IMG/VR virus record: IMGVR_UViG_3300020416_000014 | Coordinates: 1-46,577 of that record | DNA length: 46,577 nucleotides | Direction: 5' to 3' (one strand) | Origin: a virus | In this document: positions 1 to 44,587 of the stretch, in pieces | Position numbering within the stretch: position 1 is the first letter of the stretch | Layout of the letters: every line of letters begins with the position of its first letter | The notes under the pieces: generated by a model | The model's input: only the letters and a program-made list of their open reading frames with translations | What the model was told of the DNA's origin: nothing | The model's database searches: none | Position numbers and translations under genes: made by a program

Positions 1-2327
1 CTCTCGCACTTGATGGAACTAACGATTCTATAAGTATTCCTTCTACTGGAGATTTTGGATTTGGCACAAATACAGACTTCACAATTGAATTCTGGGCATA
101 CGCTAATACAACTGGTCTTTCTAGTGCAACCTTATTTGACTTAAGAACAAATGGATCTGATACTAATGGTATCAGTGTTGCATACCGTGCTGCTGGTGAA
201 GTTGACATGCGTGTTGGTACTACAACCGCTATCACTGGTTCTGGTGCAGGTATTGCTACAGGCGTCTGGAAGCACTATGCACTTGCTAGAGAGGGCACAA
301 ACACTAGATTGTTCGTTGATGGTACTCAGAGAGGTATTAAGACCTCTGACACAACTGATTACGGTGCATCTAAAGGTTTAGTTATTGGTGCTGACTTTGA
401 CGGAACAGCAAATGCTGTAAATGGTTGGATTGATGATTTTAGAATTGAATTTGGTGTTGCCAAATATACTTCAAACTTTACCGCTCCTACTTCAGAATTA
501 ACTGGTGATAAAGATACAGTTCTTCTTCTTAACTTTAATGGTGCTAATGGCATTACAACAACTACCGATAATGTAGTTCGTAATCAAGACATTCGCATTA
601 CTCAAGCAGGTGGTGGCATTGGAACTGCTACTAAGGTTATCCTTGCTGACTACAGTCAGTTTGGTGCTGACATGCGTTCTGTCAGTTGTGCTGTTGAGTA
701 TGGTCAGAAAGGTGTTATTGCTGATGGTGATGGCGTTACAATGCGTCTCTTTGCACTTAACTTTAATATGGTTGGTGCTGGTGCAGATATCACTAATGAT
801 CCTAACCTTGCAATTCAAGCAAACGAAGTTACTGAACTGAATAACGGTGATGTATCCTTCGTCAGTATTGACCAGAAAGGAGACTTTAGAGTTGGTGATG
901 CATTTATAGTTGATCAAGAAAATGGTACAGTATCATTCTCACAACAAGTAACAAGTCTACAGGCACTATCTAATCTAACGATTACTGATGGTTCAAACAG
1001 CAGTCAGATTACACCTAACAGTGGTACATTTGGCAATATTCAAATTGCTGGTAACAATATTGAATCCACATCTGGTGATATCAACATTGACCCTGCTGGT
1101 GCTGGTGATATTAACATCACTGGTAATGTAAATGTCTTAGGTATCTTAACTGCTACAGTTATTCAGTTAGATGCTTTCCAGAAAAATGATACATCAGTTG
1201 CTCTTGATGACTCTGGTTCTGACGGAACTATTAGATTTAACACTGATAATGTAGAGGCAGCAAGAATAGATGCTAATCAGAAAGTTGGTATTGCAACTGC
1301 TGCACCTAGAGACAGATTAGATGTTCTAGACACTGCTAGATTTGAAAGAATCAATGCCACAGGTGTTGTAACCTTCAGCAATATTGCAGATGTTAATAAC
1401 ATTGATATTGTAGATGCCAAAATTGTTGCTGGTTTGGCAACAGACTTTGCAATTACCAATGCTAAAATTCAATCTGGTATTGCAACTGATTTAGTTGGTA
1501 CTGCTGCTACTATTACTAATGTAGATTTTGTCAACGCTGATATTGAATCTGCCAAAATTACTGCTGGTATTATTACATCGTTAGTTGGCACTTACGCTAC
1601 TATCACAACCTTTGATACAGAAACTGCTGATCTTAAGGATGTCAAGATTACTACTGGTATCATTACAGACATCGTTGGTACTGCAGCAACAATCACAACA
1701 ATTGATGTTTCTTCACTTGATGCTGTTGACGCTAAGATTACTGCAGGTTTAGCAACTGACTTTGCAATAACAAATGCCAGAATTCAAACTGGTATTGCTA
1801 CTGAAATGACCTTCGCAGGTTTCTCAACCTTCGTTGGTATAGCAACATTCCAACAAGACATATTTGTTGCTGGTAACTTAAATGTTATTGGAGATGTAGT
1901 TTATGATGAAGTTAATGGTAGAAACCTTAATGTAACTGGAGTTAGCACATTCAATCTTACAGTTATTAGTGGAGTTGCAACAATCTCTGATATCAAGATT
2001 GGTGCTGGTGGTTCTAGTACTAAGATTGAGACAAACACTGGAGAACTTGTTCTTGATTCTGCATCTGGTCAAATTACAGTACAAGATAACTTTAATGTTG
2101 TTGGATATGCAACATTTAAGAACGGTCTTTACTATCGATCTGATCAAGGAGGAATTACAGGCATAGGATATAGCGGTCCTAATGGCATGGCATACTTTGA
2201 GGATGACGGTAGATTGGTAAGTTCTGCAAGCACTGTAGGTTTCCTAACTACTTCTAACTTCGTTATGACAACAGATGCTGCTGGCATACCCAAGTGGTCA
2301 AATTCAATTGATGGAGGATTCTTCTAA
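1..2327 (+). CDS. Fibre-like structural protein with LamG/ConA-like domain, 5' end outside window
   Basis: The reading frame is open from base 3, so the start lies upstream; about 774 C-terminal residues are visible. The first ~150 look like a laminin-G/concanavalin-like beta-sandwich (TIEFWAY, then W-KHYAL and LFVDGTQRG), a fold common in carbohydrate-binding virion proteins. A long Thr/Ile/Asn/Asp-rich region follows with degenerate repeats of the type AKITAG(I/L)xTD and VGTAATIT at about 1390-1815, as in elongated trimeric beta-helical fibres. It sits directly before gp13 and its TAA shares one base with the gp13 ATG. A tail-fibre, whisker or neck-fibre role is inferred from composition and position; no specific T4 homologue is recognised. 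Confidence 0.75.
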   Translation, partial: LALDGTNDSISIPSTGDFGFGTNTDFTIEFWAYANTTGLSSATLFDLRTNGSDTNGISVAYRAAGEVDMRVGTTTAITGSGAGIATGVWKHYALAREGTNTRLFVDGTQRGIKTSDTTDYGASKGLVIGADFDGTANAVNGWIDDFRIEFGVAKYTSNFTAPTSELTGDKDTVLLLNFNGANGITTTTDNVVRNQDIRITQAGGGIGTATKVILADYSQFGADMRSVSCAVEYGQKGVIADGDGVTMRLFALNFNMVGAGADITNDPNLAIQANEVTELNNGDVSFVSIDQKGDFRVGDAFIVDQENGTVSFSQQVTSLQALSNLTITDGSNSSQITPNSGTFGNIQIAGNNIESTSGDINIDPAGAGDINITGNVNVLGILTATVIQLDAFQKNDTSVALDDSGSDGTIRFNTDNVEAARIDANQKVGIATAAPRDRLDVLDTARFERINATGVVTFSNIADVNNIDIVDAKIVAGLATDFAITNAKIQSGIATDLVGTAATITNVDFVNADIESAKITAGIITSLVGTYATITTFDTETADLKDVKITTGIITDIVGTAATITTIDVSSLDAVDAKITAGLATDFAITNARIQTGIATEMTFAGFSTFVGIATFQQDIFVAGNLNVIGDVVYDEVNGRNLNVTGVSTFNLTVISGVATISDIKIGAGGSSTKIETNTGELVLDSASGQITVQDNFNVVGYATFKNGLYYRSDQGGITGIGYSGPNGMAYFEDDGRLVSSASTVGFLTTSNFVMTTDAAGIPKWSNSIDGGFF

Positions 2328-3148
2328 TGGCAAAACCAAATAGCAGAGCAACATTACAAGATTATGTTTTCAGACAATTAGGTGCTCCTATTTTGGAAAT
2401 TAATGTTGCTGATGAGCAATTCGATGATCTTTTAGATGACTCCCTCCAATACTTTTATGAGCGTCATTTTGATGGTGTAGAAAAAGTTTTACTTAAGTAC
2501 AAAATTACCTCTGATGATATCAAAGAAGGTAGAGCAAGAGGTAATGGATTTAGTGCTGGTATAACAACTACTACAGGAGGAACTGATTCATTTGAAGAAA
2601 ATTCAAATTTTATAACTGTTCCTGATTCTGTTATTGGTATAGAAAGGGTACATCAATTTGATAACAATGCCATTAGTAGTGGTATGTTTAATATTAAATA
2701 TCAATTATTCCTTAATGATATTGCATTTAATTTAGGATACAATGGTCTCTTAAATTATTCAATGACCAAAACATATCTAGAAGATATTAATTTCTTATTA
2801 TCAACTACACCACAAATTAGATATAATAAACGAAATAATAAATTATACATAGATTGTGACTGGGCATCAATAACAGAAAATACTATTATTCTTATTGAAT
2901 GTTATAGGATCATGGATCCAGCAAATTATGCCTCAGTTTACAATGATATGTTCTTGAAAAGATATCTCACAGCAAAAGTTAAAAAACAATGGGGTCAAAA
3001 TTTAATTAAGTTCCAAGGAGTTAAATTGCCAGGTGGAATTGAATTAAATGGTAGACAAATTTATGAAGATGCAGATTTTGAGATTAGAGAAATTGAAGAG
3101 AAGATGCAAGATACATACGAAATGCCAGTCCTTGATATGATAGGGTAA
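2327..3148 (+). CDS. 13: Neck protein gp13
   Basis: This 273-residue protein matches T4 gp13, a head-completion protein that forms the neck with gp14 and joins the DNA-filled head to the tail. It starts with a short basic leader and a helical region (LQDYVFRQLGAPILEINVADEQ) followed by FDDLLDDSLQYFYERHFDG, characteristic of the gp13 family in cyanophages. Its length is close to the T4 protein (about 309 residues). The start ATG overlaps the previous stop and the stop overlaps the gp14 start, giving the usual 13-14-15-16 virion cluster. Confidence 0.88.
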   Translation: MAKPNSRATLQDYVFRQLGAPILEINVADEQFDDLLDDSLQYFYERHFDGVEKVLLKYKITSDDIKEGRARGNGFSAGITTTTGGTDSFEENSNFITVPDSVIGIERVHQFDNNAISSGMFNIKYQLFLNDIAFNLGYNGLLNYSMTKTYLEDINFLLSTTPQIRYNKRNNKLYIDCDWASITENTIILIECYRIMDPANYASVYNDMFLKRYLTAKVKKQWGQNLIKFQGVKLPGGIELNGRQIYEDADFEIREIEEKMQDTYEMPVLDMIG

Positions 3149-4806
3149 TGCCAGTCAATCCGTTTTTCCAACATGGTTCTCCTGATGAGCAACGATTAGT
3201 TCAACAACTAGTCGATGAACAGATATCTATGTTTGGAATAGATTGTTTTTATATTCCAAGAAAACAAATTCTTACTGATGATATTTTAGGTGAGGTTCAA
3301 TCATCTAAATTCAATGACAATTATCTAATTGAGGCATATCTCAATAACTATGAGGGATATGCTAAGGGTAGTGATATCATGTCTAAGTTTGGTATCAACT
3401 TACAAAATGAAATTACACTAACAATTTCTAGAGAAAGGTTTGAAGATTTTATTGCACCATTTCAATTTAACTCTACAAACTTACAAGGTGCATTAGATGG
3501 AGATATAGATTTTGGTACAAGACCTAAAGAAGGTGATTTAATATTTTTCCCTTTAGGCGAAAGGTTGTTTGAGATTAAACATGTAGAACATGAGAGTCCA
3601 TTCTTCCAATTAGGTAAGAACTATACTTATGAACTTCAATGTGAACTCTATCAACTTCAAGACGATATTATCGACACCAATGTTGCTCAGATTGATAGCA
3701 GATTAAGTGAAGAGGGATATATTACAACAGTATCTTTAGCGGGTATTGGATCTACTGCTAAGGCATCTGTCGATACCTTTGGTTTGATTGGTGCAATGCA
3801 ACAAATCATATTAAATGATGATGGATCTGGATATACTAGTGAACCTGCTGTAACTGTTGAAACTTCTCCTGCAGGTGTTACAACATCATTTGGTAGTGCT
3901 ATTGCAATTACTACATCTTTAGGAAATTTAAATGCAGTTAAGACGGTAGCAATTACTAATACAGGTTTTGCATATACTGAACCACCTGCTATTGGATTTG
4001 GAACACCAGGCGTAGGTGCTGCTGCCACAAGTTCTTTGACAAATACTGGTATTGCATCTATTAGAATTATATCACAAGGTAATAACTATGTTACACCTCC
4101 AACAATAACTATTCAGCATCCACAATTTGTAGACAAACAATATGAATTTACTGGAGTTGTTACTGCTGGAACATCGGTAATTAGTGGTATTAACACTATG
4201 GCAAATATTGCTATCGGTCATACTGTTAATATTAAAGACTTTGGTGCTGTAACATTATCTGGTGGTGCAGTTATTACATCAATTGGAACATCCAGTGTTG
4301 GTATTGGAACATCCTTTGGAGGAACTGGTTCTATCAATACAACATTGATAGGAACTGGTGCCATGGTTGGACTTAAAACAGGTCAAGTTCAAGCAACTGC
4401 TATTTCTGTTATTGAAGATAATGCGATGTTTAGAATTTATCTAACAAATGCTGGTTCTGGATATGAGGCAAAACCAACCATTTCAATTAGTGCTCCTCTA
4501 AGCACAGGTATTGGCACATATCACATTAATGAGAGAGTGGTTGGATCCCAGTCAGGCACTGAAGCAAGAGTTAAATCTTGGAATGAACCTGAGAGAAAAC
4601 TTGAGGTATCGATAAATACTGGTAATTTCAGACCTGGTGAATTTATTACTGGTACTGCATCGTCTGCTAGATATCAAGTGTTTAGTTATGACAATGACCT
4701 TAGTGATCAAGCTGCTGGTAGTGAATTCTTTATGAACGACGAGTTTGAGGTAGAAGCAGATAAGCTTCTTGATTTTACTGAATCTAATCCCTTTGGAACA
4801 ATCTGA
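3148..4806 (+). CDS. 14: Neck protein gp14, enlarged by an inserted repeat region
   Basis: The N-terminal ~190 residues are gp14-like (VNPFFQHGSPDEQRLVQQL, then FYIPR and a final YELQCELYQ segment), and position between gp13 and gp15 supports this. At 552 residues it is about twice T4 gp14 (256). The extra part, roughly residues 215-450, is Gly/Thr/Ile-rich and carries at least four copies of a unit with a GxxY....P..I core (for example DGSGYTSEPAV, NTGFAYTEPPAI, QGNNYVTPPTI, AGSGYEAKPTI). The C-terminus is acidic (DDEFEVEADKLLDFTESNPFG type). The insert is probably a surface-exposed beta domain on the neck. It overlaps gp15 by one base. Confidence 0.85.
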   Translation: MPVNPFFQHGSPDEQRLVQQLVDEQISMFGIDCFYIPRKQILTDDILGEVQSSKFNDNYLIEAYLNNYEGYAKGSDIMSKFGINLQNEITLTISRERFEDFIAPFQFNSTNLQGALDGDIDFGTRPKEGDLIFFPLGERLFEIKHVEHESPFFQLGKNYTYELQCELYQLQDDIIDTNVAQIDSRLSEEGYITTVSLAGIGSTAKASVDTFGLIGAMQQIILNDDGSGYTSEPAVTVETSPAGVTTSFGSAIAITTSLGNLNAVKTVAITNTGFAYTEPPAIGFGTPGVGAAATSSLTNTGIASIRIISQGNNYVTPPTITIQHPQFVDKQYEFTGVVTAGTSVISGINTMANIAIGHTVNIKDFGAVTLSGGAVITSIGTSSVGIGTSFGGTGSINTTLIGTGAMVGLKTGQVQATAISVIEDNAMFRIYLTNAGSGYEAKPTISISAPLSTGIGTYHINERVVGSQSGTEARVKSWNEPERKLEVSINTGNFRPGEFITGTASSARYQVFSYDNDLSDQAAGSEFFMNDEFEVEADKLLDFTESNPFGTI

Positions 4807-20988: not shown

Positions 20989-21012
20989 TATTTGTCCATA
21001 CGGAATAGACAG

Positions 21013-21039
21013 AGAGACCCCTTGTGGGTCTCTTTTTTT
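21013..21039 (+). terminator. Rho-independent terminator after gp23
   Basis: A perfect 8-bp stem AGAGACCC/GGGTCTCT with loop CTTGT, followed by a T-run. It ends transcription of the capsid gene, and a promoter lies across its downstream half. Confidence 0.92.
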
Positions 21040-21049
21040 ATGCTATAAT
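21022..21049 (+). promoter_or_regulatory. Sigma-70-type promoter for the tRNA genes
   Basis: An extended -10 (TGCTATAAT, -10 hexamer at 21044-21049) lies just before the tRNA pair. A weak -35 (TTGTGG, three of six matches) sits 16 bases upstream, in the loop of the terminator. The -10 is strong, the -35 poor. Confidence 0.6.
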
Positions 21050-21055
21050 TCTGGG

Positions 21056-21131
21056 GACTCAATAGCTCAGTCTGGATCAGAGCAACTGCCTTCTAAGCAG
21101 TCGGTCGTAGGTTCAAATCCTACTTGAGTCG
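21056..21131 (+). tRNA. tRNA-Arg(UCU)
   Basis: Full cloverleaf: acceptor GACTCAA pairs TTGAGTC; D-arm GCTC/GAGC; anticodon stem ACTGC/GCAGT with loop CTTCTAA, giving anticodon TCT (reads AGA/AGG); variable loop of five; T-arm GTAGG/CCTAC with TTCAAAT; discriminator G. The CCA end is not fully encoded (GCCT follows). AGA is heavily used in this genome and rare in many cyanobacteria, so a codon-supplementing role is likely. Confidence 0.93.
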
Positions 21132-21135
21132 CCTA

Positions 21136-21209
21136 GGGAGTGTAGTCCAATTGGCAGAGACAGGAGACTTAAAATCTCTACAGTGTGGGTTCGAGTCCCA
21201 CCATTCCTA
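21136..21209 (+). tRNA. tRNA-Leu(UAA) with a short variable arm
   Basis: Acceptor GGGAGTG pairs CATTCCT (one G-U at the first pair and one inside); anticodon stem GGAGA/TCTCT with loop CTTAAAA, giving anticodon TAA for UUA; T-arm GTGGG/CCCAC with TTCGAGT; discriminator A, as needed by leucyl-tRNA synthetase. The D-stem has only three clear pairs. The variable loop is five bases (ACAGT), whereas bacterial tRNA-Leu normally has a long class II arm. UUA is a common codon in the phage. No CCA is encoded. Confidence 0.82.
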
Positions 21210-44365: not shown

Positions 44366-44587
44366 TATTTTGTTGATCTGACGAGGTTGACAAGGGAGTG
44401 ACTGAATAACCCTGTTGGAATTAGGCGGGGTAATGTAAACGGTCAGGGGTGGTGCCCGCATCTTCGGATGAACTTCTTACCAGAAGGACTGTTGTTGTTA
44501 TGTACTAATTTTCGCACTAGCGATTCCCATAACTTGAGGGTAAAATGTATTCCCTCCTCCCACCCTAAATATTTTTTTTAAATAAGC
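44366..44587 (+). ncRNA. Candidate structured RNA or structured 5' leader
   Basis: About 220 bases without a credible coding frame. Local hairpins are strong: ACCCTG (44409-44414) with CGGGGT (44426-44431); CATC(TTCG)GATG at 44459-44470, a UUCG tetraloop; CTTCT(TACC)AGAAG at 44473-44486; GAGGG (44536-44540) with CCCTC (44552-44556), followed by TTTTTTTT at 44572-44579. It lies between a strong terminator plus promoter and the next ATG. It may be a phage small RNA or a regulatory leader for the gp43 operon. I do not recognise a known family. Confidence 0.6.

Follow-up and report, generated by a model that had tools for sequence, protein, structure and literature searches.

According to a published review, tRNA-Leu carries a long variable arm everywhere except in animal mitochondria, where tRNA-Leu(UUR) is charged with leucine without it (PMC9976931). 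Leucylation in E. coli depends on the discriminator A73, the pair A15-U48, G18G19 and A20a, and not on the long arm; a truncated tRNA-Leu lacking both the variable and the anticodon arms is still active, and the long arm is needed by SerRS and dispensable for LeuRS (PMC9976931). A tRNA-Leu(TAG) with a short loop has been mentioned in passing as a member of a mycobacterial cluster of tRNA genes (PMC6582537), and in the open-access literature only such passing mentions were found, with no description of the short-arm tRNA-Leu as a family. The viral DNA analysed here, a stretch of 46,577 nucleotides referred to below as the window, contains a genuine tRNA-Leu without the long variable arm, which belongs to a recurrent, rarely discussed short-arm type and is not unique to this phage.

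Structure and Setting of the Gene

The gene was called by ARAGORN as tRNA-Leu(taa) of 74 nt and matched by the Rfam model RF00005 along the full model (1-71), with 58.1 bits at a gathering score of 29 (E 4.2e-10). ARAGORN found two tRNA genes in the whole window, tRNA-Arg(UCU) and tRNA-Leu(UAA), in which Rfam concurs (Table 1). As read from the sequence, the acceptor stem GGGAGTG/CATTCCT has seven pairs including two G-U, the D-stem GTC/GAC three pairs (C12-G23 among them, with C13 opposite A22), and the anticodon stem GGAGA/TCTCT and the T-stem GTGGG/CCCAC five pairs each.

Table 1. Positions of the tRNA-Leu(UAA) gene, its parts and the adjacent features in the window.
Feature	Position	Strand	Source
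tRNA-Leu(UAA), 5-nt class I-like variable loop, CCA not encoded	21136-21209	+	ARAGORN, RF00005, sequence
D-arm GTCCAATTGGCAGAGAC, Leu-type D-loop: A14, A15, G18G19, A20a (21156)	21145-21161	+	sequence
Anticodon UAA, within loop CTTAAAA (21168-21174)	21170-21172	+	sequence, ARAGORN
Variable loop ACAGT; U48 is the Levitt partner of A15	21180-21184	+	sequence
Discriminator A73	21209	+	sequence
tRNA-Arg(UCU), 2 bases upstream of tRNA-Leu(UAA)	21056-21133	+	ARAGORN; Rfam 70 bits
Terminator-like hairpin, between gp23 and the tRNA pair	21011-21035	+	

With class II taken to mean a variable region of at least 10 nt forming an arm, the 5 nt found here leave the molecule outside that class, in agreement with the initial annotation, which had described a variable loop of five bases and class I size. 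That annotation had also named an alternative fold with a long arm as a possible objection; such a fold is rejected, as the anticodon stem and the T-stem are just 5 nt apart, and minimum-energy folding of the RNA reproduces the cloverleaf, with a single variable loop. The folding energy is not distinctive alone (z -0.74), and the case for a real tRNA is therefore made by the covariance model and the homologues, not by stability. The D-stem of only three pairs, likewise pointed out in the initial annotation, is present but nothing unusual: among the matches listed, the 115 viral tRNA-Leu(UAA) with a long arm form pairs at 10-25, 11-24 and 12-23, with G.A or A.A at 13-22, so that three pairs are standard in tRNA-Leu and provide no argument for oddness.

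The sequence surrounding the gene has matches in T4-like cyanophages (Kyanoviridae) across gp23, uvsW, gp3 and uvsY, and the order in the window is gp23, the terminator-like hairpin, tRNA-Arg(UCU) and tRNA-Leu(UAA). The scan for a sigma-70 promoter near the tRNA pair reported no full one; a TATAAT hexamer occupies 21044-21049, with 6 bases separating it from the tRNA-Arg gene. A strong match to the manA motif, a structured RNA (Rfam RF01745, 128.4 bits, 44371-44566, plus strand), lies close to the window's end.

Short and Long Forms in Cyanophages

The comparison with other cyanophage leucine tRNAs, proposed at the outset, revealed both forms. In P-SSM7, the corresponding interval between gp23 and gp3 contains tRNA-Ile, tRNA-Arg and a tRNA-Leu of 73 nt, and short tRNA-Leu genes of 73-74 nt are found also in P-RSM6 and S-CREM1. 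Identity to the window tRNA-Leu, calculated for the matched part only, is 95% in P-SSM7, 89% in P-RSM6 and 92% in S-CREM1; all are short and have the variable loop ACAGT in common with the window, as orthologues would, although S-CREM1 differs from it by another acceptor stem and the absence of a tRNA-Arg neighbour. The tRNA-Leu(UAA) genes of S-SSM7 and S-8S53 are of class II, with the same anticodon and the same acceptor strand GGGAGTG as in the window, and that of S-SSM7 is placed after the same tRNA-Arg; they are distinguished from the window gene by the long variable arm and the G9, G12-C23, G13 core. The cyanophage short and long tRNA-Leu share the acceptor strand and differ in position 9, the D-stem and the arm. 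The Arg-Leu order of the window is repeated in P-SSM7, P-RSM6 and S-SSM7. The short tRNA-Leu of P-SSM7 is immediately followed by a gene with the annotation tRNA ligase (1707-2504 of the retrieved segment).

The reverse oddity, a long variable arm on a tRNA-Asn(GUU), was met in P-SSM7 (2511-2597 of the retrieved segment) and in the T5-like phage 5 (5884-5966 of the retrieved segment), and 9 of 61 viral tRNA-Asn calls have a variable region of more than 7 nt, some of them being perhaps intron or misfold calls.

Distribution in Other Viruses, Plasmids and Bacterial Chromosomes

In a sample of viral contigs accepting either length, 12 of 106 tRNA-Leu(UAA) were short, approximately 1 in 9, this sample being confined to tRNAs with the TTGG Leu-type D-loop and possibly not random. 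T5-like phages have the short form as well. It is not limited to the UAA anticodon: a short tRNA-Leu(UAG) is present in a mycobacteriophage, and a Nostoc plasmid carries an array with 20 tRNA genes (1389-3415 of the retrieved segment) whose CAA and UAG tRNA-Leu are short-armed. The tRNA-Ser(UGA) parsed in that array is long-armed.

When bacterial genomes were scanned for the short pattern, the matches, with near-identical D-arms, came mostly from Actinobacteria, many genomes of which have the short UAA gene; in an even draw from this phylum the exact short pattern occurred in 7 of 149 genomes, so only some actinobacterial clades have the short form. In one complete Mycolicibacter chromosome, in which Rfam recognises 45 tRNAs, the sole UAA and the sole CAA tRNA are short (V=5) and the CAG, GAG and UAG tRNA-Leu are all of class II; in other words, both UUR readers are arm-less and all CUN readers long-armed. 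If no further UAA tRNA was overlooked, UUA must be translated as leucine by the short tRNA of this bacterium, and the general statement of the initial annotation that bacterial tRNA-Leu is class II proves too broad, since the only UAA and CAA copies of this chromosome are short.

Core Types and History of the Arm

The window tRNA (V=5, A9, C12-G23, C13 opposite A22) represents the main core type of the short form. Among the matches listed, the pattern-selected viral short UAA tRNAs have A9 in 91/98, C12-G23 in 90/98 and C13 in 96/98, and the genome set selected by the pattern gives 59/63, 63/63 and 63/63, respectively; each of these features is found in 0/115 of the long viral UAA tRNAs among the matches listed, and the pattern-selected long UAA set has G9, G12-C23 and G/A13 without exception. 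A strict linkage of core and arm length was nevertheless dropped, because with the D-loop positions left free G12 appears in 31 of 62 short UAA tRNAs, about half thus having the G12-C23 core. When the arm columns were left out of the tree, 3 short/long changes were counted, as against about 33 for shuffled labels, and 2 short rows fell within the long-arm group, the tree being based on few columns and with mostly weak support. As judged from these comparisons, the short tRNA-Leu family is coherent, and the long arm was probably lost more than once.

Leucine Identity

The whole LeuRS identity set (A73, A15-U48, G18G19, A20a) is present in the window tRNA together with the leucine anticodon UAA and A14, which bears out the early reading of the loop CTTAAAA and the discriminator A as leucine features; the identity rules themselves derive from the E. 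coli, Aquifex and human enzymes. Among the matches listed, 91 distinct viral short UAA sequences were checked for their stems and have A73 in 91/91 and A15-U48 in 86/91. Two further checks, by freeing positions and by other anticodons, were made to avoid the circularity arising from the D-loop search patterns. The combination of A73, A15-U48 and A20a was found in 61 of 62 short UAA tRNAs when positions 15, 20a, 48 and 73 were left free, in 86 of 94 short viral Leu tRNAs of non-UAA anticodons, not chosen by the D-loop, and in just 17 of 1210 viral class I tRNAs specific for amino acids other than leucine, all being counts of distinct sequences and not of independent events.

An anticodon-blind isotype profile, built from ARAGORN calls with arm length ignored, assigned 632 of 775 tRNAs correctly in leave-one-out; it was set aside, as the short Leu tRNAs were split by it among Lys, Leu, Ile, Met and others, and the published identity bases were used instead.

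Arm length on the same viral contigs differs by amino acid: the arm is long in 104 of 105 Ser and in 48 of 52 Tyr tRNAs (4 short), whereas the non-UAA Leu tRNAs include 94 short and 73 long (94/167), a fraction that is no population estimate because the contigs were picked for holding tRNA-Leu(UAA), many of them short. The contrast between Leu and Ser/Tyr holds regardless of the contig choice. The arm would be lost only where the synthetase, LeuRS, permits, and its retention in Ser and Tyr is as expected on that view.

Proposed Function and Alternative Explanations

The gene most likely encodes a functional phage tRNA-Leu(UAA), with the arm lost or never present, which would be charged with leucine by the host LeuRS; its shape is unusual, its function very probably ordinary. 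The D/T-loop elbow, the Levitt pair and the discriminator keep the features read by bacterial LeuRS and should in this way permit leucylation by the host enzyme. Since no CCA is encoded, the host CCA-adding enzyme would be needed for completing the 3' end. The charged tRNA is expected to decode UUA, and probably also UUG, when the AT-rich messages of the phage are translated, with tRNA-Arg(UCU) serving AGA alongside it. In the main open reading frames of the window, selected together with their start codons mechanically, UUA constitutes 285 of 1045 Leu codons (27%) and AGA 337 of 609 Arg codons (55%). The gene with its anatomy, the conserved identity set, the recurrence of the short type and its sole use for UUA in a mycobacterial chromosome are shown here, and we infer from them that the cyanobacterial LeuRS charges the tRNA, that CCA is added, and that the gene is expressed and of benefit during infection. 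The suggestion in the initial annotation that the host synthetase tolerates the missing arm is well supported by the conserved Leu identity bases and by short-arm homologues that have to function in cells.

Its other suggestion, that the tRNA is charged differently, found no support: charging with another amino acid (e.g., Met, Ile or Phe), leading to mistranslation of UUA in phage or host messages, would be in line with the class I shape and with the position of some short Leu bodies nearer to Lys, Met or Ile in the anticodon-blind profile, but it is made very improbable by the identity bases, present in the window tRNA and nearly all short Leu and nearly absent in tRNAs of other amino acids, by the homologues being the sole UUA readers in a bacterium of normal code, and by the commonness of UUA in the phage's own genes. 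It is just as improbable that the gene has decayed or lost its function and survives as a remnant deprived of the arm. The two acceptor G-U pairs, the unencoded CCA and the failure to find a sigma-70 promoter nearby could be taken as traces of decay; however, none of the four stems is broken, several cyanophages have retained the gene, and the viral short Leu tRNAs share the conserved core (A9, C12-G23, C13) with acceptor stems that vary in sequence and keep their pairing.

A leucine-charged tRNA is assumed also by the explanation that the arm loss was selected to hide the molecule from arm-binding host enzymes, such as toxins, nucleases or SerRS, for which a precedent is given by some tRNA-attacking toxins that use the long arm, such as the mycobacterial toxin MenT3 with its need for the Ser variable loop (PMC11541572). 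This is very unlikely, given that the arms are retained by Ser and Tyr tRNAs on these phage contigs, that Actinobacteria have the short tRNA-Leu on their chromosomes too, and that related cyanophages have the long-arm tRNA-Leu. Nor do we know of an arm-using, tRNA-attacking toxin in the host. A broader and likewise unlikely proposal is that the arm loss is an adaptive trait of mobile tRNA-Leu, which would be accepted by the LeuRS of many bacteria and escape the arm-gripping host factors; if true, it would explain the repeated loss in Leu, and not in Ser or Tyr, of phages and tRNA-array plasmids.

Relation to Known Short-Arm tRNA-Leu

For annotation, a phage short-arm tRNA-Leu such as the functional tRNA-Leu(UAA) proposed here is not to be read as a pseudogene or as a mis-assigned isotype. 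The short tRNA-Leu genes of phages and Actinobacteria stand as exceptions to the mitochondria-only statement of the review (PMC9976931), and they put to a natural test what was found in vitro, namely that the arm is dispensable for bacterial LeuRS. The tRNA-Leu2(UAA) of the T5-like phage 5 resembles that of the window in being phage-borne, with a short 5-nt variable loop and a Leu-type D-loop, and differs in the stem sequences, the GTTTT variable loop, the encoded CCA and the enterobacterial host; its record states that effective amber suppression is obtained with the CUA version, which, like the Mycolicibacter genes, is natural evidence that a short tRNA-Leu can function. The actinobacterial short tRNA-Leu(UAA) of Mycobacterium, Nocardia, Arthrobacter and others has the same 5-nt variable loop and loop CTTAAAA, and shares with the window A9, C12-G23, C13 opposite A22, A15-U48, A20a and A73, but it is chromosomal, has G+C-rich stems and is the sole UUA reader in the genome fully checked. 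The animal mitochondrial tRNA-Leu(UUR), similar in the missing arm, is organellar, evolved separately and is recognised by the mitochondrial LeuRS.
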